Source: Streptomyces aurantiacus (lineage in GTDB: Bacteria; Actinomycetota; Actinomycetes; Streptomycetales; Streptomycetaceae). From it: DNA of 64,000 nt. The translations under genes were made by a program, and so were the position numbers. Location of the stretch: contig NZ_CP114283.1 in assembly GCF_027107535.1 (NCBI RefSeq), forward strand, positions 3,410,001-3,474,000. The letters are read 5' to 3'. A model generated the notes under the pieces. That model did no database searches. It saw nothing but the letters and a program-made list of their open reading frames with translations, and had not been told where the DNA came from. Of this stretch, positions 20,233-30,056 are shown in pieces. Positions within the stretch are counted from its first letter, which is position 1. Each line of letters begins with the position of its first letter.

Positions 20233-21354
20233 TCAGCCGCCGGCCTCCACGGTGACAGGCGCGCTCCTCGGTGCGTCCGCCAGCAGCCGCCGTATGTCCC
20301 GTACGGCTCCCCGACCGGCGCGGTTCGCGCCGATGGTGCTGGCCGACGGCCCGTACCCGACCAGGTGGATCCGCGGGTCGGCGACCGCCCGGGTTCCTTC
20401 GACGCGGATGCCCCCGCCGGGCTCGCGCAGCCGCAGCGGCGCCAGATGGTCGACCGCCGCACGGAAACCGGTCGCCCACAGGATGACGTCCGCCGTCACC
20501 CGGCGCCCGTCGTCCCACTCCACGCCGTCAGGAGTGATCCGGTCGAACATCGGCAGCCGGTCCAGGACTTTGTCCGCGATGCCCTGCCGGACCGCGTCGT
20601 TGAGCGGCAGCCCCGTCACCGACACGACGCTCTTCGGCGGCAGCCCCTGGCGCACCCTCTCCTCCACGAGCGCGACCGCCTCCCGGCCCACGTCCTCGGT
20701 GAAGGGCCCCTCCCGGAAGACCGGCGGCCGCCGGGTCACCCAGGTGGTGGCGGCCGCGTACGGCGCCATCTCCAGGAGATGCTGCGTACCGGACGCGCCC
20801 CCGCCCACCACGACCACGCGCTGCCCGGCGAATTCCTGCGGACCGGGGTACTGGGCGGTGTGCAGCTGCCGCCCCCGGAAGGTCTCCTGACCGGGATAGC
20901 GGGGCCAGAACGGCCGGTCCCAGGTGCCCGTCGCGTTGATCAGCGCCCTCGTCGACCACGTACCGTCCGACGTCTCGACGAGTAGTCGGCCGCCGTCGCC
21001 CTCGCGTACCGCCGTCACGTCGACCGGCCGTCGCACCCGCAGGCCGAACTCGCGCTCGTAGGCGTCGAAGTACTCGGCGATGACCTCGGAGGACGGCCGG
21101 TCCGGATCCGCGTCCGTCAGTTCCCTGCCCGGCAGCGCGTGCATGCCGTGCACCTTGCCGTACGTGAGGGACGGCCACCGGAACTGCCAGGCGCCTCCCG
21201 CCCGCGGCGCGTGGTCAAGGACCACGAAGTCCCGCTCCGGTTCGAAGCCGGTGCGCCGCAGGTGGTAGGCGCTGGACAGTCCGGCCTGCCCGGCGCCGAC
21301 CACGACGACATCGACGTCCCGCACTGCCCGCGCCTGCGCTCCGGTCTCGTTCAC
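20233..21354 (-). CDS. FAD/NADPH-dependent flavin monooxygenase (FMO-like)
   Basis: 373 residues. Two Rossmann motifs are visible: FAD-binding VVVVGAGQAGLSSAYHLR near residue 16 and NADP-binding VVVVGGGASG near 172. Between them, FRGRQLHTAQYPG resembles the FMO/BVMO identifying motif. ILWATGFRAA near 295 is the usual late FMO ATG motif. The enzyme likely oxygenates a small N-, S- or ketone-containing molecule; the neighbouring sulfonate uptake operon hints at sulfur, but this is inference. GTG 21352-21354 is the only start close to the Rossmann fold; a GGGG run is the nearest Shine-Dalgarno. Confidence 0.88.
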   Translation of the reverse strand: MNETGAQARAVRDVDVVVVGAGQAGLSSAYHLRRTGFEPERDFVVLDHAPRAGGAWQFRWPSLTYGKVHGMHALPGRELTDADPDRPSSEVIAEYFDAYEREFGLRVRRPVDVTAVREGDGGRLLVETSDGTWSTRALINATGTWDRPFWPRYPGQETFRGRQLHTAQYPGPQEFAGQRVVVVGGGASGTQHLLEMAPYAAATTWVTRRPPVFREGPFTEDVGREAVALVEERVRQGLPPKSVVSVTGLPLNDAVRQGIADKVLDRLPMFDRITPDGVEWDDGRRVTADVILWATGFRAAVDHLAPLRLREPGGGIRVEGTRAVADPRIHLVGYGPSASTIGANRAGRGAVRDIRRLLADAPRSAPVTVEAGG

Positions 21355-21419: not shown

Positions 21420-22451
21420 TCACGACTGCCTGGAGGGGCGGGGAGCGGTCGTGGACGGCGGCAGGTCTCCGTTGAAGCGGGTGTCCACGAAGTCACCGAA
21501 GTCGACCTTGCGCGGGATGAGCTTCAGGCCGGTGAACGTGTCCGCGATCTCCTGCTCGGAGGCGATGAGCGGTGTGTCGAGGGCGACCGGAATCCGGGTC
21601 GCGTTGGTCCGCTTCACCGAGGCCAGCGCCACCTCGTAGGGCAGCCCGGTGTCCTTCGCCCAGACCTCGGCCCACTCCTTGGGGTGCTCGTGGACCCAGT
21701 CCTGCGCGCGCCGCAGCCGCTCCAGGTAGTCGCCGATGGCCGCGACCTTCTTCTTGTCCCGGAGCGCTCCGGGCGCAGCCACCTGGAAGGTGAGGCCGTT
21801 GGTCACGTCGTCGCCGTCCGTCAGGACACGGCCCCGCCCGCCCTGAAGGACCTGGGACGTGTAGGGGTCCCAGACCGCCCAGGCGTCGACCTTGCCGGCG
21901 GTGAACGCGGCCAGTGCGTCGGCGGGCTGCAGGTACTTCACCTCGACGTCGCTGAGCTTCAGCCCGGCCTTCTTGAGCGAGGCGACCAGCTGGTAGTGCG
22001 CGGACGAACCCTGCGCCACGGCCACCGACCTGCCTTTCAGGTCCGCGGTCTTCTTCAGATTCGAGTCCCTGGGCACGAGGATGGTGTCGCCCTTGGCCCT
22101 GCCTCGGTAGCCCGCCACGATGCTGATCCTGGAGTCGGCGCCCGCCGCGAAGACCGGAGGGGTGTTGCCGACGCCGCCGATGTCGACGGCCTTGGCGTTG
22201 ACGGCCTCCAGGAGTGGTGGGCCGGACGTGAAGGTCGACCATTTGATCTTGTAGTCGAGGTTCTCGAGTTCTCCGGCGGCCCGCAGCACCGCCTCCGAAC
22301 CTCCCTTCTGGTCACCGACGTCGAGCGTCACGGAGCCCTTGCCGTCGGTCCTGCCGCCCGTCGAGGTGGCGGCGGACGAGTTGCCGCCGCAGGCGGCGGC
22401 CAGCAGGGCCAGCGGGAGAAGCAGCGAGGCGGGGACGAGTTGTCGTCGCAT
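21420..22451 (-). CDS. ssuA: Aliphatic sulfonate ABC transporter, substrate-binding lipoprotein
   Basis: 343 residues. The lipoprotein signal ends LLAAACGG, so it is membrane-anchored outside the cell. The body is a periplasmic-binding NMT1/SsuA-like domain: VTLDVGDQKGGSEAVLRAAG, then FTSGPPLLEAVNAKAVDIGGVGNTPPVFA, KGRSVAVAQGSSAHYQL and WAVWDPYTSQV. It captures alkanesulfonates (or taurine-like compounds) for the SsuC/SsuB permease. The ORF is open much further upstream, but only ATG 22449-22451 gives the signal peptide. It is the last gene of ssuC-ssuB-ssuA, separated from ssuB by 185 bases with a tandem repeat. Confidence 0.92.
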   Translation of the reverse strand: MRRQLVPASLLLPLALLAAACGGNSSAATSTGGRTDGKGSVTLDVGDQKGGSEAVLRAAGELENLDYKIKWSTFTSGPPLLEAVNAKAVDIGGVGNTPPVFAAGADSRISIVAGYRGRAKGDTILVPRDSNLKKTADLKGRSVAVAQGSSAHYQLVASLKKAGLKLSDVEVKYLQPADALAAFTAGKVDAWAVWDPYTSQVLQGGRGRVLTDGDDVTNGLTFQVAAPGALRDKKKVAAIGDYLERLRRAQDWVHEHPKEWAEVWAKDTGLPYEVALASVKRTNATRIPVALDTPLIASEQEIADTFTGLKLIPRKVDFGDFVDTRFNGDLPPSTTAPRPSRQS

Positions 22452-22500
22452 GGCGATTCCGTTCGATCGGTTCGAGTGGGGCCGGGGATTTACTGGAAGC

Positions 22501-22540
22501 AGCGGTGCAGCGGTGCAGCGGTGCAGCGGTGCAGCGGTGC
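22501..22540. repeat. Perfect 5 x 8-bp tandem repeat between ssuB and ssuA
   Basis: The unit AGCGGTGC is repeated five times without error, in the untranslated spacer upstream of ssuA. Eight bases is not a codon multiple, so copy change would alter spacing only. Confidence 0.97.
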
Positions 22541-22636
22541 GGATGGGCGGTACGGGCGGCACGGGCGGGGACCGAGCGGCAACCGGGAACCACCGAGGAG
22601 GAGTTCGGGGTGTCCGGGAGCGGTCGCCGGACTGGT

Positions 22637-23440
22637 TCAGGCGGCCTCGGCGGCCGTGTCGACGCCCAGGCGTTCCAGTAGTCCGGCGCGCAGCTCCGCG
22701 AACCGCGGGTCGGTGATGTCTCGCGGGCGGTCCAGCGCGACCGTGGTCTCGTACGCGATGACGCCCTCGTCCATCACGAGGACGCGGTCGGCGAGCAGCA
22801 CCGCCTCCTCCACGTCGTGCGTGACCAGGAGCACGGCGCAGCCGCGGCGCTGCCACAGTTCGCCGACGAGCCGCTGTGCCTTGATGCGGGTCAGTGCGTC
22901 CAGTGCGCCGAACGGCTCGTCGAGCAGCAGGAGATCGGGTTCGCGCACCAACGCACGGGCCAGCGAGGCGCGTTGGGCCTCACCGCCGGAGAGTGTTTTG
23001 GGCCAGGCGTCGGAGCGGTGGATGAGGCCGACCTCGGTCAAGGCCCGCTCCGCGACGGCGCGTTCGGGCTTGCCGGGCAGGCCGAGCAGGACGTTGCGCC
23101 ACACCTTCTTCCACGGCATCAGTCGGGGTGACTGAAAGGCGACGGCCTTGCGGCGCGGGACGAGCACGGTGCCTTCGATGTCGCGGTCGAGGCCGGCGAG
23201 AATGCGCAGGAGCGTGGACTTGCCGCAGCCGCTACGGCCCAGGAGTGCCACGAACTCGCCGGGTCGGACGTCGAGTTGGAGGTCGCCGATGACCGTTCGG
23301 CCGTCGAATGCCCGGGTCAGGCCTTCGACCCGTACCGCCGAGGCGGGTGACGCCCCGTGCTTCTGGGTGCTCGTCGCGGCCCGGTCGGAGCCGACAGGGG
23401 CCGTCCGGGGGCTCACCGTCCGGTGAATGTCGGTCGCCAT
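22637..23440 (-). CDS. ssuB: Aliphatic sulfonate ABC transporter ATP-binding protein
   Basis: 267 residues with a roughly 40-residue non-conserved N-terminal extension. The ATPase core has Walker A GRSGCGKST near residue 69, Q-loop FQSPRLMPW, signature LSGGEAQRASLARAL, Walker B LLLLDEPFGALD and LLVTHDVEEA. The SPRLMPWKKVWRNV stretch is typical of the sulfonate/nitrate/taurine importer class. It powers uptake through SsuC. The ATG lies 28 bases inside the ssuC reading frame, so translation of the two is coupled. Confidence 0.94.
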   Translation of the reverse strand: MATDIHRTVSPRTAPVGSDRAATSTQKHGASPASAVRVEGLTRAFDGRTVIGDLQLDVRPGEFVALLGRSGCGKSTLLRILAGLDRDIEGTVLVPRRKAVAFQSPRLMPWKKVWRNVLLGLPGKPERAVAERALTEVGLIHRSDAWPKTLSGGEAQRASLARALVREPDLLLLDEPFGALDALTRIKAQRLVGELWQRRGCAVLLVTHDVEEAVLLADRVLVMDEGVIAYETTVALDRPRDITDPRFAELRAGLLERLGVDTAAEAA

Positions 23441-24300
23441 TGCAGCAACAGCCTTTCGAGAGAGCGGACGATGAAGTCGGTCAGCAGGCCGAGGAAGGCG
23501 TAGACGACCAGGCAGACCACGATGACGTCGGTACGCAGGAAGTCCCGCGCCTGGACCATCAGGAAGCCGATTCCGGCGTCGGCGTTGATCTGCTCGGCGA
23601 AGACCAGCGCGAGCCAGGCGATGCCCAGCGAGTAGCGCAGACCGGTCATGGCGCTGGGGAGGGCGCCCGGCAGGACGACATGCCGTACGAGCCCCCAGCG
23701 GGAGAGCCCGAGGGACTCACCGGCCTCGATCAGCTGGGAGTCGACGCCGCGGATGCCGGCGTACACGTTGAGGTAGAGCGGGAAGGAGACGCCCAGCGTG
23801 ATGATCGCGACCTTCGGGGCCTCGCCGATGCCGAACCAGATGATGAACAGCGGGATCAGGCCGACGAACGGCACGGTCCGCAGCATCTGGACACTCGCGT
23901 CGACCAGGTCCTCGCCGACCCGGAACAGGCCCGAGATCAGGGCGAGTCCGGTGCCGGCGACCGTGCCGAACAGCAGGCCCACGGCGACGCGCTGAAGTGA
24001 GACGCCCATGGCATGGGGCAGCGACCCGTCGGAGATCAGATCGCCGGCGACCCGTGCGATGGTGCCGGGCGAGGCCAGGACGTCCGTGGGCAACGCGCCT
24101 GTGGTGCTGAGGACTTGCCACAGGACAAGGAGGAGGGCGGGACCGGAGGTGCGGCGCAGCCAGCGGGGGACTCGGGTGCGGCGGGTCGAGGCGGGGACGA
24201 TGGGTTCGAGCTCGGGCGGGGTGCGATCGGTGGGAGCAGACACCGACATGGGCGAAATATCAGCATCGAGTGAATCGGGTGGGGCATGGCTGATGCTCAT
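23413..24300 (-). CDS. ssuC: Aliphatic sulfonate ABC transporter permease
   Basis: 295 residues with an unusually long (about 45-residue) Pro/Ser-rich cytoplasmic N-terminus. Six membrane segments follow, with the permease EAA loop EAGESLGLSRWGLVRHVVLPGALP, characteristic of the SsuC/TauC/NrtB group. It forms the membrane channel for SsuB and SsuA. GGAG lies 7 bases before the ATG. It is the first structural gene of the operon and is preceded, 139 bases upstream, by the leader peptide at 24440-24523. Confidence 0.94.
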   Translation of the reverse strand: MSISHAPPDSLDADISPMSVSAPTDRTPPELEPIVPASTRRTRVPRWLRRTSGPALLLVLWQVLSTTGALPTDVLASPGTIARVAGDLISDGSLPHAMGVSLQRVAVGLLFGTVAGTGLALISGLFRVGEDLVDASVQMLRTVPFVGLIPLFIIWFGIGEAPKVAIITLGVSFPLYLNVYAGIRGVDSQLIEAGESLGLSRWGLVRHVVLPGALPSAMTGLRYSLGIAWLALVFAEQINADAGIGFLMVQARDFLRTDVIVVCLVVYAFLGLLTDFIVRSLERLLLQWRPTFTGR

Positions 24301-24373
24301 GAGGGCTCCACGGCTGAGAGCGGCGGGACGAGGCGCGTGAGGAGCGCGTGCTTCAGCGGCCCGGTTTCCGGTT

Positions 24374-24390
24374 CACGTCAGGCGGACGTG
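24374..24390 (-). promoter_or_regulatory. Stem-loop between leader peptide and ssuC
   Basis: A perfect 6-bp stem CACGTC/GACGTG with a 5-base loop lies in the transcribed leader between the uORF stop and ssuC. It is a candidate part of an attenuator; no competing structure was proved. Confidence 0.4.
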
Positions 24391-24439
24391 CGGAAGCGGG
24401 GAGCTGTGACGCGGGAAGGGAAAAGCGGGTGAGGAGTCG

Positions 24440-24523
24440 TCAGCGGCCGGTGTGACACGCGGCGGAGGCCACCCGCAGCAGGTCGATGTGACCGCGCGTG
24501 GTGAGCAGAGCTGAACGCAACAT
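24440..24523 (-). CDS. 27-residue Cys-containing leader peptide of the ssu operon
   Basis: A short frame reading MLRSALLTTRGHIDLL, continuing RVASAACHTGR and a TGA stop. The RGHIDLLRVAS core followed by a Cys near the end is the hallmark of actinobacterial leader peptides found before sulfur-assimilation operons. In mycobacteria, Cys-dependent translation of such upstream frames controls downstream sulfur genes. No Shine-Dalgarno precedes the ATG; a TTGACC-N18-TACTTT promoter ends only 7 bases before it, which fits leaderless translation. The uORF ends 139 bases before ssuC. Expected role: a cysteine sensor acting by attenuation or ribosome-site access, not a free peptide product. Confidence 0.88.
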   Translation of the reverse strand: MLRSALLTTRGHIDLLRVASAACHTGR

Positions 24524-24530
24524 GCGGCTG

Positions 24531-24560
24531 AAAGTAGCCAGCTGGACCGCGTACGGTCAA
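24531..24560 (-). promoter_or_regulatory. Probable housekeeping promoter of the ssu operon
   Basis: On the minus strand, -35 TTGACC (24555-24560) and -10 TACTTT (24531-24536) are separated by 18 bases. The predicted start of transcription falls at or within a base or two of the leader-peptide ATG at 24523. Confidence 0.65.
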
Positions 24561-24862
24561 TGCCGTCTCGCGGAGTGGACCCGCGTATCACGCGGCGGCG
24601 GTGTGGGCCGAGGCGAGTACGGCTGCGGGTGCGCACCCGGTGGTGGGGCCAAAAAGAGACGGACCGGCGTGAGGTCGTTCGTGGTGGCTCCCGTCGGCGG
24701 GTTGGGGCAGGTTGGGGCGGGTTGGGGCGGCATCGGGGAAGCCGAGGAAGGCTGTGGGGCGGCCGGGCCGGGGCGGAGAGAGAACCGGGGCGGTGGGCAA
24801 ACCGGCGGTTCGGCGCGCGGCCGGAGCGGTGTGGAATCCGGCGGACGGGTGAGGATGGGTTC
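24561..24862. other. 302-base intergenic region between ssu leader and YjbQ gene
   Basis: No supported gene. On the + strand the three copies of GTTGGGGC(A/G)G at 24701-24730 and later GGGG runs give a strongly G-rich strand. The promoter of the YjbQ gene should lie in the last 100 bases, but no convincing -35/-10 pair was recognised. Confidence 0.5.
24701..24730 (+). repeat. Three tandem 10-bp G-rich repeats (G-quadruplex-capable)
   Basis: GTTGGGGCAG is followed by GTTGGGGCGG twice. With a further GGGG at 24735-24738 the strand has four G4 runs separated by short loops. Confidence 0.85.
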
Positions 24863-25285
24863 ATGTCCGATTCCTTCACCACCCGTGTCCTGAACGTCGC
24901 CTCCGGTTCCGGGGAAGCGGTCGTCGACCTCACCCATGAGTGCGAGGCGTTCCTTCGCGAGGCGGCCCGTGACCGCGACGGCCTGCTCAATGTTTTCGTG
25001 CCCCACGCGACGGCCGGCGTGGCGATCCTCGAAACGGGTGCGGGCAGCGACGAGGACCTGCTCGCCGCTCTCCACACGCTCCTCCCGGCGGACGACCGCT
25101 GGCAGCATCGTCATGGAAGTCCGGGCCACGGCCGCGACCATGTCCTGCCGGCGATCGTGCCTCCGCACGCCACCCTGCCGGTGGTCGAAGGCCGCCTGGA
25201 ACTGGGGACGTGGCAGTCGGTCTGCCTGGTCGACACCAACCGGGACAATCCGAACCGGCAGGTGCGGCTGAGTTTCCTCGGTTAG
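24863..25285 (+). CDS. YjbQ/UPF0047 family protein (secondary thiamine-phosphate synthase-like)
   Basis: 140 residues starting MSDSFTTRVLNVASGSGEAV. The YjbQ core is present: LNVFVPHATAGVAILETGAGSDEDLLAALHTLLP, then HRHGSPGHGRDHVLPAIVPP and the closing GTWQSVCLVDTNRDNPNRQVRLSFLG. Members form compact trimers and E. coli YjbQ has weak thiamine-phosphate synthase activity, but the physiological role is not settled. The His residues in HGSPGHGRDH lie at the putative active site. ATG 24863 follows GAGGATGGGT. Stand-alone gene, neither neighbour related. Confidence 0.88.
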   Translation: MSDSFTTRVLNVASGSGEAVVDLTHECEAFLREAARDRDGLLNVFVPHATAGVAILETGAGSDEDLLAALHTLLPADDRWQHRHGSPGHGRDHVLPAIVPPHATLPVVEGRLELGTWQSVCLVDTNRDNPNRQVRLSFLG

Positions 25286-26084: not shown

Positions 26085-26338
26085 GTTAGGTTCACCTTAG
26101 CGATTGGGTGGCCGGCACGGACAGCGGGGGACGGTCGGCACCGGCCTTCCCTCCTCGCATCCTGCCCGCTGTCGGCCCGCCCTCGCCACACGCGGTGTCG
26201 TCTCCTCCTCCCGCCCGTCTCTCGATTCCCCCTGTCATTCGTCCTTTCCCCTTCGTCTTTCGTCTTTGTGTCTCCTGTTTCCTCCGCCAGCCGGACCGTC
26301 CTCGCGATGTGGTCCGGATCCGCGAAAGAAGGCTGACC
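26085..26338 (+). other. Pyrimidine-rich untranslated leader before the molybdenum hydroxylase operon
   Basis: From about 26195 to 26286 the + strand is predominantly C and T (CTTTC, CGTCTTT and TCCTCC runs), lower in G than the surrounding DNA. No conserved protein is encoded in any frame. The operon promoter and any leader regulation must lie here, but no clear -35/-10 pair was picked out. Confidence 0.5.
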
Positions 26339-26938
26339 ATGGCCCCAGAGTCCTCGTCGACGTACAGCGACATCACCTTGAACATCAACGGGGAGAAGCA
26401 CACGCTCAGCGTCGACCACCGCACCACCCTGCTCGACGCCCTGCGTGAGCGCCTCGACCTGACCGGTACCAAGAAGGGCTGCGACCAGGGGCAGTGCGGC
26501 GCCTGTACGGTCCTGATCGACAAACGCCGGGCCGTCGCCTGCCTGCAACTGGCGGTGGCGGCCGAGGGCCGGGAGATCACCACCATCGAAGGTGTCGCCC
26601 AGGGCGAGCAACTGCACCCCGTACAGCAGGCGTTCCTCGACCTCGACGGCTACCAGTGCGGCTACTGCACGCCCGGCCAGATCTGCTCGGCCGTCGCGGT
26701 GATCGAGGAACACGCGGCCGGCTGGCCGAGCGCCGCCACCGACGACGTACGCCCCGAAGCGGGGCCGCCACCGCTGACCGCCGAGGAGATCCGGGAGCGG
26801 ATGAGCGGCAACCTGTGCCGCTGCGGCGCGTACGTGTCGATCGTGCAGGCGGTCGCCCGCGCGGCCGCGGCCGACGAGCGGACCGCTGGGGCCGCGCAGG
26901 ACACACAGACCGTGAAGCACGAGGAGGCGGCGGCATGA
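26339..26938 (+). CDS. Molybdenum hydroxylase 2Fe-2S subunit (xanthine/aldehyde dehydrogenase, PaoA/YagT-like)
   Basis: 199 residues. The plant-type [2Fe-2S] loop KKGCDQGQCGACTVLI lies near residues 48-63, with its fourth Cys in RAVACLQL. The second, all-helical cluster domain has YQCGYCTPGQICSAVAVI near 105-122 and NLCRCGAYVSIVQAV near 160. It carries electrons from the Mo centre to FAD. There is no Tat signal peptide, unlike periplasmic E. coli PaoA, so the complex should be cytoplasmic. AAGAAGG precedes the ATG. First of four overlapping genes. A 20-residue insertion with acidic and Pro residues separates the last two cysteine motifs. Confidence 0.94.
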   Translation: MAPESSSTYSDITLNINGEKHTLSVDHRTTLLDALRERLDLTGTKKGCDQGQCGACTVLIDKRRAVACLQLAVAAEGREITTIEGVAQGEQLHPVQQAFLDLDGYQCGYCTPGQICSAVAVIEEHAAGWPSAATDDVRPEAGPPPLTAEEIRERMSGNLCRCGAYVSIVQAVARAAAADERTAGAAQDTQTVKHEEAAA

Positions 26939-27927
26939 GGGAATTCGGATATGAGCGCGCCGTCGACGTCTCAGGCGCTCTCGCGCTGCTCGACGCCGAC
27001 CCGGACGCCCGGTTCCTCGGCGGCGGCACCAATCTCGTCGACCTGATGAAGACCGGCGTCGAGCGGCCCGGCCGGCTTGTCGACGTACGTGAACTCCCGC
27101 TGGACCGGATCGAGTCGACCGAGGACGGCGGGCTGCGCATCGGAGCGACCGTCACCAACAGCGACCTCGCGGCCCACCCCGACGTGCGCCGGCGCTACCC
27201 GGCCCTGACCCAGGCGGTGCTGGCCGGCGCCTCCGGGCAGCTGCGCAACATGGCCACCGTCGGCGGCAACCTGCTGCAGCGCACCCGCTGCGGCTACTTC
27301 ACCGACGTGAGCAAGCCGTGCAACAAGCGCGTCCCCGGGAGCGGATGCCCCGCGAGGGAGGGCGAGCACCACAACCACGCGATCCTGGGCGCCTCCGGCC
27401 ACTGCGTGGCCACCCACCCCTCCGACCTGGGGGTGGCGCTGGCGGCCTTCGACGCCGTCGTCTCCTACGAAACGGCGGACGGGCCGGGTCGGTTGCCCTT
27501 CTCCGAGTTCTACCTGCCGGTGGGTGACACCCCGCACCTGGAGACCGCCCTGCCGCCGGGAGCACTGATCACCGGCGTCACCCTGCCGCCCGCCCCGGTG
27601 GCCGCCGCCTCCCGCTACCGAAAGGTGCGCGAGCGGGCCTCGTACGCCTTCGCGATCGGCTCGATCGCCGCCGCACTCGACGCCCGGGACGGCGCCGTAC
27701 AAGAGGTGCGCCTGGCCTTCGGGGCGGTCGCGTCCCGCCCGTGGCGGGCCCGCACGGCCGAACGGGCCCTGACCGGCGGGCCGGCCGACGCCGAGGCCTT
27801 CGCCGCCGCCGCGGACGCCGAACTGGCGGCCGCCAGGCCGCTGCCACACAACGGATACAAGGTGACACTGATGCGCAACCTCGTCGTCGCCGTCCTGAGC
27901 GAACTCGCCGAGGAGGCCGCCCGATGA
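26935..27927 (+). CDS. Molybdenum hydroxylase FAD subunit with extra Fe-S cysteines (PaoB/YagS-like)
   Basis: 330 residues of the CO dehydrogenase flavoprotein type. FAD-binding FLGGGTNLVDLMKTGV lies near residue 31 and GASGQLRNMATVGGNLLQRT near 99. The insertion CGYFTDVSKPCNKRVPGSGC, followed by a Cys in GHCVATHPSD, matches the extra [4Fe-4S] cluster loop of PaoB-type proteins. It passes electrons from the 2Fe-2S subunit to the acceptor. The start ATG overlaps the upstream stop (ATGA), so translation is coupled. Confidence 0.93.
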   Translation: MREFGYERAVDVSGALALLDADPDARFLGGGTNLVDLMKTGVERPGRLVDVRELPLDRIESTEDGGLRIGATVTNSDLAAHPDVRRRYPALTQAVLAGASGQLRNMATVGGNLLQRTRCGYFTDVSKPCNKRVPGSGCPAREGEHHNHAILGASGHCVATHPSDLGVALAAFDAVVSYETADGPGRLPFSEFYLPVGDTPHLETALPPGALITGVTLPPAPVAAASRYRKVRERASYAFAIGSIAAALDARDGAVQEVRLAFGAVASRPWRARTAERALTGGPADAEAFAAAADAELAAARPLPHNGYKVTLMRNLVVAVLSELAEEAAR

Positions 27928-30056
27928 CCACCACCACGACCGGGACCCCGGCCACGAAGAACGCCGTCGGCACCGCCCACACCCGGGTGGAGGGCCGCGA
28001 CAAGGTCACCGGCGCCGCCCGCTACGCGGGAGAGATCCCCTTCGCCGAACTCGCCCACGGCTGGCTGGTGCTGTCGACGGTCACCAGGGGCCGCGTCCTC
28101 TCGGTGGAGAGCGCTCCGGTCCTCGGGATGCCGGGCGTCCTGACCGTCCTGCACCACGGGAACGCCCCGCGGGTCGCGAGCGACTACATCGGCCTGCTCG
28201 GTGTCCCGCCGGACCCGACCGTCGCCGTCTTCCAGCACGACCGCGTGCCGCACGCCGGCTGGCCGGTGGCGCTGGTCGTCGCCGAGACCTCCGAACAGGC
28301 CAGGGAAGCCGCCGAGGCACTGGTGGTGCACTACGAGGAGGAACCGCACGACGTCGACTTCACCGGCGACCACCCGGACGCCCAGCCGGTGACCGGCCCG
28401 AGCGGACCGGGGGTGACGGAGAAGGGGGACCTGGAGGGCGAACTCGCGGCGTCCGCCGTCGTCCTGGACGCCGAGTACACCACGCCGCAGGAGCACCACA
28501 ACGCGATGGAGCCCCACGCGGTGACGGCCCTGTGGGACGGCGGCCGGCTCGAGGTCGTGGACTCCAACCAGGGCACGATGTGGGTCGCGGACGAGCTCGC
28601 GAAGCTCTTCTCGCTCGATCCCGCCTCGGTGCGGGTGCGGTCCGAACATGTCGGCGGCGGCTTCGGGAGCAAGGGCGTCCGCGCCCACCAGGTGTCCGCC
28701 GTGATGGCGGCGACCGTCCTGTCGCGCCCGGTCCGGGTCGTCATGACACGCCGTCAGATGTTCTCGATCGCCGGCTACCGGAGTCCCACGACCCAGCGGA
28801 TCAGGCTCGGCGCCGATGCCGGGGGACGGCTGCGCGCGCTGGAGCACAGCTCCCTGAGCCTCACCTCGACCGTGCACGAGTTCATCGAGTCGAGCGCCGG
28901 TGTGGCACGGGTGATGTACGACGCCCCCGCCCACCGCACCGCCAACCGGGTCGTACGGCTCGACGTGCCCACCCCGACGTGGATGCGTGCTCCCGGAGAG
29001 GCACCCGGGTCGTTCGCGCTGGAGTCGGCGCTCGACGAGCTCGCCGAGAAGTGCGGCATCGACCCGATCGAGCTGCGCATCCGCAACGAACCGGCGCGGG
29101 GCCCGGTGTCCGGCCTGCCGTTCAGCACCCGCAACCTGCCCGCCTGCTTCCGGGAGGGCGCCCGCAGGTTCGGCTGGGCGGACCGCGACCCGCGGCCCGG
29201 GCAGCGCCGGGACGGGCGCTGGCTGCTCGGCACCGGGACGGCGGCGGCATCCTTCTTCGCGGGAGCCGCCCCCTCCACGGCGGCCGCGACCGCGGAGGCC
29301 GACGGCACCTTCACCGTACGGATCAACGCCGCGGACATCGGAACCGGTGCGCGGACGGCGCTCACCCTGGTCGCCGCCGACGCCCTCCAGGTGCCGACCG
29401 ACCGCGTGCGCGTGCGGATCGGCGACAGCGACTTCGGCCCGGCGATGATCGCCGGCGGCTCCATGGGCACCCGCTCGTGGGCCTGGGCGGTCACGGCCGC
29501 GGCCGAGGAACTGCGGGAGCGGCTCGTCCTGAGCGACGGCATTCCGCCCGAGGGCATCACGGTGCGGTCGGACACCACCGAGGCCGTCGGAGCCCTCGCG
29601 CAGAAGGAGCGGCACTCCTTCGGGGCGCAGTTCGCCGAGGCCGCCGTGGACGTGGCCACCGGCGAGGTGCGGGTGCGGCGCATGCTCGGCATCTTCGCCG
29701 CCGGCCGGATCGTCAACCCGCTCACGGCCCGCGGCCAGTTGACCGGCGGGATGATCTGGGGCATCTCCATGGCCCTGCACGAGGAGGCGGTGCGGGACCG
29801 GGCCACGGGCACCCACTACGGCGCCGACCTGGCGGGATACCACGTCGCCACGCACGCCGACGTTCCGCTCGTCGAGGCGGACTGGGTGGACGACCCGGAC
29901 CCGGACGACCCGGTCGGGGTCAAGGGCATCGGGGAGATCGGCATCGTGGGGGCCGCCGCGGCGATCGCCAACGCCGTCTGGCACGCGACCGGTGTACGCC
30001 ACCGCAGCCTGCCCATCCGTCCCGACCGTGTCCTGGAGGCGGGCCCGCATGCTTGA
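27924..30056 (+). CDS. Molybdenum hydroxylase catalytic Mo-binding subunit (PaoC/YagR-like)
   Basis: 710 residues. The N-terminal domain VEGRDKVTGAARYAGEIP is followed by Mo-cofactor-binding regions: NAMEPHAVTALWDG, HVGGGFGSKGVRAHQVSAVMAA, RAPGEAPGSFALESALDELAEK and GGSMGTRSWAWAVTAAA. The catalytic Glu is in GVKGIGEIGIVGAAAAIANAV near the C-terminus. It hydroxylates aldehydes or N-heterocycles such as purines using water as oxygen source; substrate class cannot be decided. ATGA overlap with the FAD subunit. No Arg/Glu purine-site assignment was attempted. Confidence 0.94.
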   Translation: MTTTTTGTPATKNAVGTAHTRVEGRDKVTGAARYAGEIPFAELAHGWLVLSTVTRGRVLSVESAPVLGMPGVLTVLHHGNAPRVASDYIGLLGVPPDPTVAVFQHDRVPHAGWPVALVVAETSEQAREAAEALVVHYEEEPHDVDFTGDHPDAQPVTGPSGPGVTEKGDLEGELAASAVVLDAEYTTPQEHHNAMEPHAVTALWDGGRLEVVDSNQGTMWVADELAKLFSLDPASVRVRSEHVGGGFGSKGVRAHQVSAVMAATVLSRPVRVVMTRRQMFSIAGYRSPTTQRIRLGADAGGRLRALEHSSLSLTSTVHEFIESSAGVARVMYDAPAHRTANRVVRLDVPTPTWMRAPGEAPGSFALESALDELAEKCGIDPIELRIRNEPARGPVSGLPFSTRNLPACFREGARRFGWADRDPRPGQRRDGRWLLGTGTAAASFFAGAAPSTAAATAEADGTFTVRINAADIGTGARTALTLVAADALQVPTDRVRVRIGDSDFGPAMIAGGSMGTRSWAWAVTAAAEELRERLVLSDGIPPEGITVRSDTTEAVGALAQKERHSFGAQFAEAAVDVATGEVRVRRMLGIFAAGRIVNPLTARGQLTGGMIWGISMALHEEAVRDRATGTHYGADLAGYHVATHADVPLVEADWVDDPDPDDPVGVKGIGEIGIVGAAAAIANAVWHATGVRHRSLPIRPDRVLEAGPHA

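Follow-up and report, generated by a model that had tools for sequence, protein, structure and literature searches.

Analysis of a 64,000-nt stretch of the Streptomyces aurantiacus genome (the window) pointed to a 27-codon upstream open reading frame (uORF) as the sensing part of a cysteine attenuator of the sulfonate operon ssuCBA, which would work through one slowly decoded UGU codon and probably gate Rho. We regard this reading as reasonably probable; the response to cysteine, the stalling of the ribosome and the part played by Rho are deduced from sequence patterns. A run of regulatory codons is the usual mark of an attenuator, whereas a single codon seems to suffice here: at 188 loci a single rare Cys synonym was used, while synonyms varied at invariant Arg and Asp positions. 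That the relatives examined share one rare Cys codon gives a hint of the way in which a gene this short might register a lack of sulfur. If the reading is true, the question of single-codon amino-acid sensing becomes a one-base comparison (TGT to TGC), and a sequence rule would be available by which actinomycete genes of unknown function that respond to sulfur could be found. The features concerned were:

24555 to 24560, minus strand: -35-like box TTGACC, kept as TTGACC/G in 80/80 ssu leaders
24531 to 24536, minus strand: -10-like box TACTTT, separated by 7 nt from the uORF start codon (A at 24523), assigned by position and conservation
24440 to 24523, minus strand: uORF of 27 codons (MLRSALLTTRGHIDLLRVASAACHTGR), ATG to TGA, with leaderless anatomy (ORF list, NF042934 match, conservation)
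24455 to 24457, minus strand: candidate sensor codon, Cys codon 23 (TGT, then C), 4 codons before the stop, TGT at 80/80 ssu and 188/188 family loci
24380 to 24439, minus strand: C-rich, G-poor tract directly after the uORF stop, a candidate rut-like Rho-binding region (C-G 0.38)
24306 to 24309, minus strand: Shine-Dalgarno-like (SD-like) GGAG of ssuC, an SD-like motif occurring before ssuC in 80/80 ssu leaders
23413 to 24300, minus strand: ssuC-like sulfonate ABC permease (SsuC NF008470, E 1.5e-70, 237.6 bits, under the equivalog cut-off of 347)
22637 to 23440, minus strand: ssuB-like ATPase with a 28-nt overlap with ssuC (NF008420, E 9.7e-75, 251 bits, under the equivalog cut-off of 395)
21420 to 22451, minus strand: ssuA-like sulfonate-binding lipoprotein (TIGR01728 SsuA_fam, 194.8 bits, over the subfamily cut-off of 163.5; the frame 21420-22553 was scanned and the start set by eye at MRRQLVP)
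20233 to 21354, minus strand: ArsO-like flavin monooxygenase after ssuCBA (313.4 bits, under the ArsO cut-off of 425), possibly part of the sulfonate operon

The divergent neighbour of the operon, on the plus strand, was a YjbQ-family gene. At 26108-30056, also on the plus strand, the translations alone pointed to a probable molybdenum hydroxylase set with 2Fe-2S, FAD and large subunits.

The orthologues of ssuC provided a sample that was independent of the uORF. At least 396 SsuC relatives were found, the best 80 of which (73-88% identical in the best segment, all Streptomyces) were kept, their loci being picked by SsuC alone without regard to the uORF. An orthologous uORF lay upstream of ssuC at 79 of these 80 loci, and at the sole miss (L060) there were 27 nt of contig before ssuC. 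The uORF goes beyond chance, since it was present at all 79 SsuC-selected loci with enough upstream sequence and matched its HMM with an E of 2.3e-07. The preliminary description of this DNA had placed a 27-codon frame between promoter-like boxes and ssuC, and this frame, at 24440-24523 on the minus strand, was confirmed as real and conserved, with leaderless anatomy around a predicted transcript start. The distance of 139 nt to ssuC that it had given agreed with the coordinates; across the 80 ssu leaders (the 79 orthologues and that of the window) the uORF-ssuC spacer ranged from 104 to 377 nt, with a median of 146.

The boxes proposed as a promoter, TTGACC and TACTTT separated by 18 nt, were likewise found where described in the window. 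A strict sigma-70 consensus scan of positions 24000-25200 listed no promoter, so the promoter claim rests on conservation in the 80 leaders. TTGACC/G was located 31 nt from the start position in 74 of these and 30 nt in 6, and the hexamer at -13 to -8 was TACGTT in 34/80 and TACTTT in 23/80. The expected absence of a ribosome site at the uORF and its presence at ssuC also held up: the 20 nt preceding the uORF contained an SD-like motif in 0/80 ssu leaders, and one stood before ssuC in 80/80. The uORF began with ATG in 79/80. From this conserved anatomy, for which the counts cover the ssu group (80 leaders), we infer that transcription starts at the uORF ATG and that ribosomes load without a leader. 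In the remaining leader (L059), ACG stood at the canonical start and an in-frame ATG followed five codons later, shifting the start relative to the promoter.

Comparison with protein models assigned the uORF to NCBIfam NF042934 (cis_reg_atten, 'putative leader peptide') with 30.2 bits against a cut-off of 27, over profile positions 2-19 of 19. It belongs to this catalogued family, and its kind is already known: it shares the core and the late Cys, with no difference at the level of membership, which bears out the claim that it carries these marks of actinobacterial sulfur-operon leader peptides. Its place before ssuC, in the window and at the orthologous loci, also fits the family name as we interpret it, a short upstream ORF before a metabolic gene. 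The entry gives the family name only, without a mechanism; the present analysis adds the TGT/pyrimidine pattern and the C>G tract. Matches over the cut-off occurred in 59/61 genomes (the S. aurantiacus genome and 60 relatives) and in 128/197 genomes drawn from the class. No Pfam match was found for the uORF. Together, a conserved Cys leader peptide with predicted leaderless anatomy ahead of a sulfonate operon means that the earlier interpretation was partly supported.

The mycobacterial poly-Cys leaders Ms5788A and Ms4527A, the subject of Canestrari et al. 2020, are reportedly leaderless and placed before cysteine/sulfur genes, and in the model said to apply to them, a ribosome stalled at the Cys codons frees a sequestered downstream ribosome site. 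The uORF resembles them in its place before sulfur genes, in a promoter spacing and lack of an SD that would fit a leaderless start, in a shared core and in weak HMM matches (20.1 bits for the Ms4527A model NF042936 and 13.5 bits for the Ms5788A model NF042933, both under cut-offs of 45). It differs in that it has one Cys rather than a run, and in that ribosome-site release was unsupported by folding. The number of Cys residues was one in 29 ssu leaders, two in 43 and three in 8 (n=80). The single Cys noted earlier therefore stood for the uORF of the window and failed as a rule, since only 29/80 ssu leaders were of the one-Cys type. Some leaders detected by the same family model (L011, L217, L218, L220 and L244) carried the same core followed by a Cys run, in which TGT and TGC were mixed, although the aligned position itself had TGT. 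In G054, G099, G132 and G209, the same places passed the cut-off of NF042933 as well. It thus seems that single-Cys and poly-Cys leaders form one family and differ in their tails. The suggestion that sensing differs from that of poly-Cys attenuators was weakened by these Cys-run leaders with the same core and model; what survives of it is that the output step may differ. In the parts of Seliverstov et al. 2005 (PMC1262725) that were available, Cys-run leader peptides are described before cys operons (Mycobacterium, P. acnes) and cbs (B. longum); no obvious terminator is found there, Rho is suggested, polyY motifs are noted and the Mycobacterium prediction is called rather weak. The cysteine cases in those parts are without Streptomyces, single-Cys leaders or sulfonate genes, while the ssu leaders have their tract directly after the stop.

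Codon usage at the late Cys was followed in a family set of 120 loci, consisting of 10 from the S. aurantiacus genome (uORF included), 30 from a profile search of relatives and 80 hand-picked, all high-scoring among the matches listed. Removal of duplicates left 102 distinct loci with 47 distinct 13-residue cores. Two class-wide sets of 28 and 40 loci were likewise high-scoring among the matches listed, L245-L274 being left out of the codon counts. The Cys at the last model position was encoded by TGT at 120/120 loci (102 distinct), 28/28 and 40/40, that is, at all 188 family loci examined; at L044, where the model match ended early, the first C after the match was taken. A protein-profile search favours Cys at that position and is blind to its codon. 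Background TGT, in genes of the same loci and of the window, amounted to 75/729 Cys codons under a strict gene filter, which understates it by demanding high GC3, to 168/964 under a laxer filter and to 14/82 in the 28 class-wide loci, an overall range of 10-17%. Within the S. aurantiacus genome, leader TGT occurred in 10/10 cases vs. 16/101 Cys codons in the window (Fisher p 1e-07). This ten-paralogue comparison is the more cautious figure, family-wide p-values being overstated because related sequences are treated as independent.

Other Cys codons in the same leader peptides, to which no gene filter was applied, were 11 TGT and 125 TGC (n=136) in the 120-locus set, and beyond codon 23 the 80 ssu leaders had 54 TGC and 5 TGT. 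Counting against the attenuator reading, other Cys codons in the class-wide sets, Cys runs included, were more commonly TGT (18/69 and 7/50). The base after TGT was also constrained: among the 102 distinct loci it was C in 81, T in 17, A in 4 and G in none, compared to G in 351/729 of the background. The corresponding counts were C 21 and T 7 in the 28 loci, C 34, T 4 and A 2 in the 40 loci, and C 72 and T 8 in the 80 ssu leaders. TGT is thus followed by a pyrimidine as a rule, A being the exception in 6 of 170 cases and G never occurring. At invariant positions of the core in the 120-locus set, several synonymous codons were used (five at Arg6, two at Asp10, four at Arg13), indicating that the residue is kept there and the codon is not. 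The His and Leu positions, conserved in most members, likewise varied in their synonymous codons across the family.

ARAGORN, applied to 23 of the 30 tRNA loci listed, gave 37 gene rows with one tRNA-Cys, which has the anticodon GCA, and none with ACA (71 tRNAs scored above threshold in the genome). UGU would therefore be a wobble codon (G-U). A 3' pyrimidine slows decoding further, as is known from suppressor-context work. For Streptomyces, wobble reading of GAU by tRNA-Asp-GUC is given as inefficient in passages of PMC9262613, and sensing through synonymous codons has a precedent in the serine sensor of Bacillus, according to the abstract of PMC3862929. Among the papers listed in a literature search, titles and abstract openings showed neither a TGT-only rule nor a single-Cys Streptomyces sulfur leader, a weak result, as Canestrari et al. 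2020 could mention it. A term look-up in PMC8079986 (S. lividans) led to a table that lists 8 leader peptides without assigning any to cysteine, and term look-ups in PMC10654065 and PMC4895711 did not find leader peptides or cysteine.

Downstream of the uORF stop, the tract had a C-G value of 0.38, which was reached by 0.05% of 60-nt segments sampled in 7-nt steps along both strands of the window. Averaged over the 60 nt after the stop, C-G was 0.33 in the 80 ssu leaders, 0.18 in the 102 distinct family leaders and 0.06 in 31 control intergenic segments; values above 0.2 were found in 95% of ssu leaders, 38% of family leaders and 19% of controls (n=31, a small set). The 40 class-wide loci, which had no control of their own, averaged 0.16. 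A strong tract is chiefly a feature of the ssu group. As a sign of Rho, the excess of C over G is suggestive only, and the length of the tract, much greater than one ribosome footprint past the Cys codon, makes it less obvious how one stalled ribosome would block Rho. No terminator-like site was found at 24000-25200 in the scan of the window leader, compared to a mean of 0.5 in shuffles. A trpL-type attenuator was rejected, there being no terminator hairpin with a U-tract before ssuC in that leader. A hungry-codon frameshift into the spacer was discarded as well, as frames open to ssuC showed no consistent pattern (+1 in 17/80, -1 in 3/80, post-stop frame in 31/80).

The mechanism attributed to the nearest experimentally studied relatives, translation attenuation as in mycobacterial poly-Cys leaders, would instead have the leader RNA hide the ssuC ribosome site until a ribosome stalled at the Cys frees it. 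It agrees with folding of 78 ssu leaders (L101 and L112, with spacers >260 nt, were left out), in which the ssuC SD was predicted to be mostly paired (mean unpaired 0.086), in part with uORF codons 1-17 (0.24). The main partner of the SD was local, however, with 0.49 of pairing within the last 45 nt, and the distance between uORF and ssuC is variable. A 30-nt mask at the Cys codon raised SD accessibility by more than 0.05 in 7/78 leaders and lowered it in 12/78, the mean falling from 0.086 to 0.082, so that freeing of the site by a ribosome at that codon was unsupported. Masking of the whole uORF raised accessibility by more than 0.05 in 14/78 and lowered it in 5, with means of 0.099 and, with 12 nt more masked, 0.114; the queued-ribosome variant was set aside because this rise was small. 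We consider translation attenuation unlikely. Because folding indicated no ribosome-site release and a C>G tract is present, a Rho-dependent output is favoured over release of the ribosome site with moderate confidence.

In the proposed mechanism, transcription would start at the uORF ATG, where a ribosome loads leaderless, and the conserved nascent chain (R..H.DL.R...) would be made before the ribosome reaches UGU, 4 codons from the stop, which tRNA-Cys(GCA) would read by wobble. UGU with its 3' pyrimidine would be the slow step, and a fall in Cys-tRNA would stall the ribosome there. With plentiful cysteine, the ribosome would end at UGA and leave, exposing the C-rich tract, so that Rho could load and stop RNA polymerase before ssuC. 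When cysteine is scarce, the stalled ribosome would keep Rho off and the sulfonate genes would be made. As similar leaders precede other genes of the S. aurantiacus genome, several of them clearly sulfur genes, the proposal includes a joint response. A comparable arrangement is known from tnaC, a uORF with a stalling ribosome and a Rho-dependent end before the next gene. The copper uORF CruR of Bordetella (PMC9426467) senses copper through a nascent CXXC, arrests at RAPP and has a C>G bubble and Rho. The uORF would be analogous to both in having a stalling ribosome, a C>G bubble and a Rho-dependent end; it differs from CruR, where copper acts through the nascent CXXC, in that a single Cys codon would be the sensor. 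Rho-dependent uORF attenuators are marked by a region rich in C and poor in G beyond the stall site, and the tract of the window is such a region.

Constraint on the RNA itself provides another explanation for the constancy of the codon. Third codon positions were nearly frozen in ssu leaders, with an entropy of 0.148 over codons 1-23, compared with 0.62 when a 60-codon block was taken from 78 SsuC genes, which may reflect RNA-level constraint, perhaps beyond what peptide selection alone explains. An RNA- or protein-binding element, in which a UGUY motif or a hairpin and not Cys decoding is under constraint and peptide conservation is partly a by-product, would account for this and for the nucleotide-level preference that extends to the base after the codon. 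In several groups, TGT was located in the loop of a stem of 5-6 bp, and the mean stem score over 137 distinct loci (12.9) exceeded those of all 50 flank swaps (mean 11.8, highest 12.3) and of shuffled flanks (10.4). The gain over the swaps was small and the stem was weak or absent in a number of members, so that a hairpin with TGT in its loop is at most a possible cause of TGT. The family-wide variation of synonymous codons at the invariant Arg and Asp and the mostly conserved His and Leu positions argues against such an element, as do the absence of Rfam matches in the window at gathering thresholds and the fact that TGT was in the reading frame as a Cys codon in 188/188 cases. We judge it improbable. 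Sensing by the nascent peptide, whose Cys would bind metal or react with redox/sulfur species in the manner of CruR, with tRNA-Cys charging secondary, agrees with the conserved core and the Rho-coupled CXXC precedent (PMC9426467) but is very improbable, since the Cys lay 0-6 codons from the stop in 98/102 distinct loci and would still be inside the ribosome at the decision, was the sole Cys in 29/80 ssu leaders, and the constancy of the codon would be left without explanation.

The attenuator reading, with its slow UGU codon, extends to other genes of the genome (9.9 Mb, 2 contigs). Of the ten leaders found there, 7 passed the NF042934 cut-off, while the other 3 fell short of it with E values from 0.003 to 0.024; weaker matches, starting at E 0.39, were in long frames of at least 260 codons. 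The genes following eight of the ten were a cysteine dioxygenase, a luciferase-like monooxygenase, a nitrite/sulfite reductase, ssuC, a rhodanese, a 2OG-Fe(II) oxygenase, a sugar-type binding protein and an NMT1-type binding protein, with no good gene frame after L040. The tenth preceded a small CysO/MoaD-like frame, assigned by inspection and without a Pfam match, and then a cysteine synthase. Five of the ten stood before clear sulfur genes, 2 before plausible ones and 3 before others (the 2OG-Fe oxygenase, the sugar-type binding protein and the locus without a good frame).

Across the family, downstream frames were chosen by script at 99 of the 102 distinct loci and none was found at 3. The Pfam tally of these 99 frames gave PALP 22 times (22 match cysteine synthase, TIGR01136), cysteine dioxygenase 16, rhodanese 10, nitrite/sulfite reductase 8, sulfatase 7, APS kinase 1 and permease 1 (SsuC of the window, by place). 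Plausible additions were luciferase-like monooxygenase (17), FMN reductase (4) and NMT1 (3), the others being single. Sulfur genes accordingly made up at least 65/99 if no protein is counted twice, with up to 24 more plausible and at least 10 without a sulfur assignment.

A broader scheme, which we put forward as doubtful speculation, would make one obligate UGU plus pyrimidine, the slowest-decoded Cys context, the sensor of an actinomycete sulfur 'ribulon', a term from mycobacterial work. The codon, primed by the conserved nascent-chain core, could report both cysteine charging and tRNA sulfur status (G-U wobble, ms2), a single codon replacing the codon run and Rho replacing the terminator. 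In tRNAs that read codons beginning with U, A37 can bear an ms2 group that depends on sulfur, and a miaB gene was present in the S. aurantiacus genome.

Three of the ten leaders drew attention for what follows them. Two that scored under the cut-off preceded the 2OG-Fe(II) oxygenase (L044, C2:9043405) and the sugar-type ABC binding protein (L045, C2:2675734), genes without a stated sulfur role, which their leaders make candidates for the use of sulfur sources. Behind the L040 leader (C2:3813361), which was over the cut-off, a short frame stops at its 15th codon, and its target gene may have decayed.
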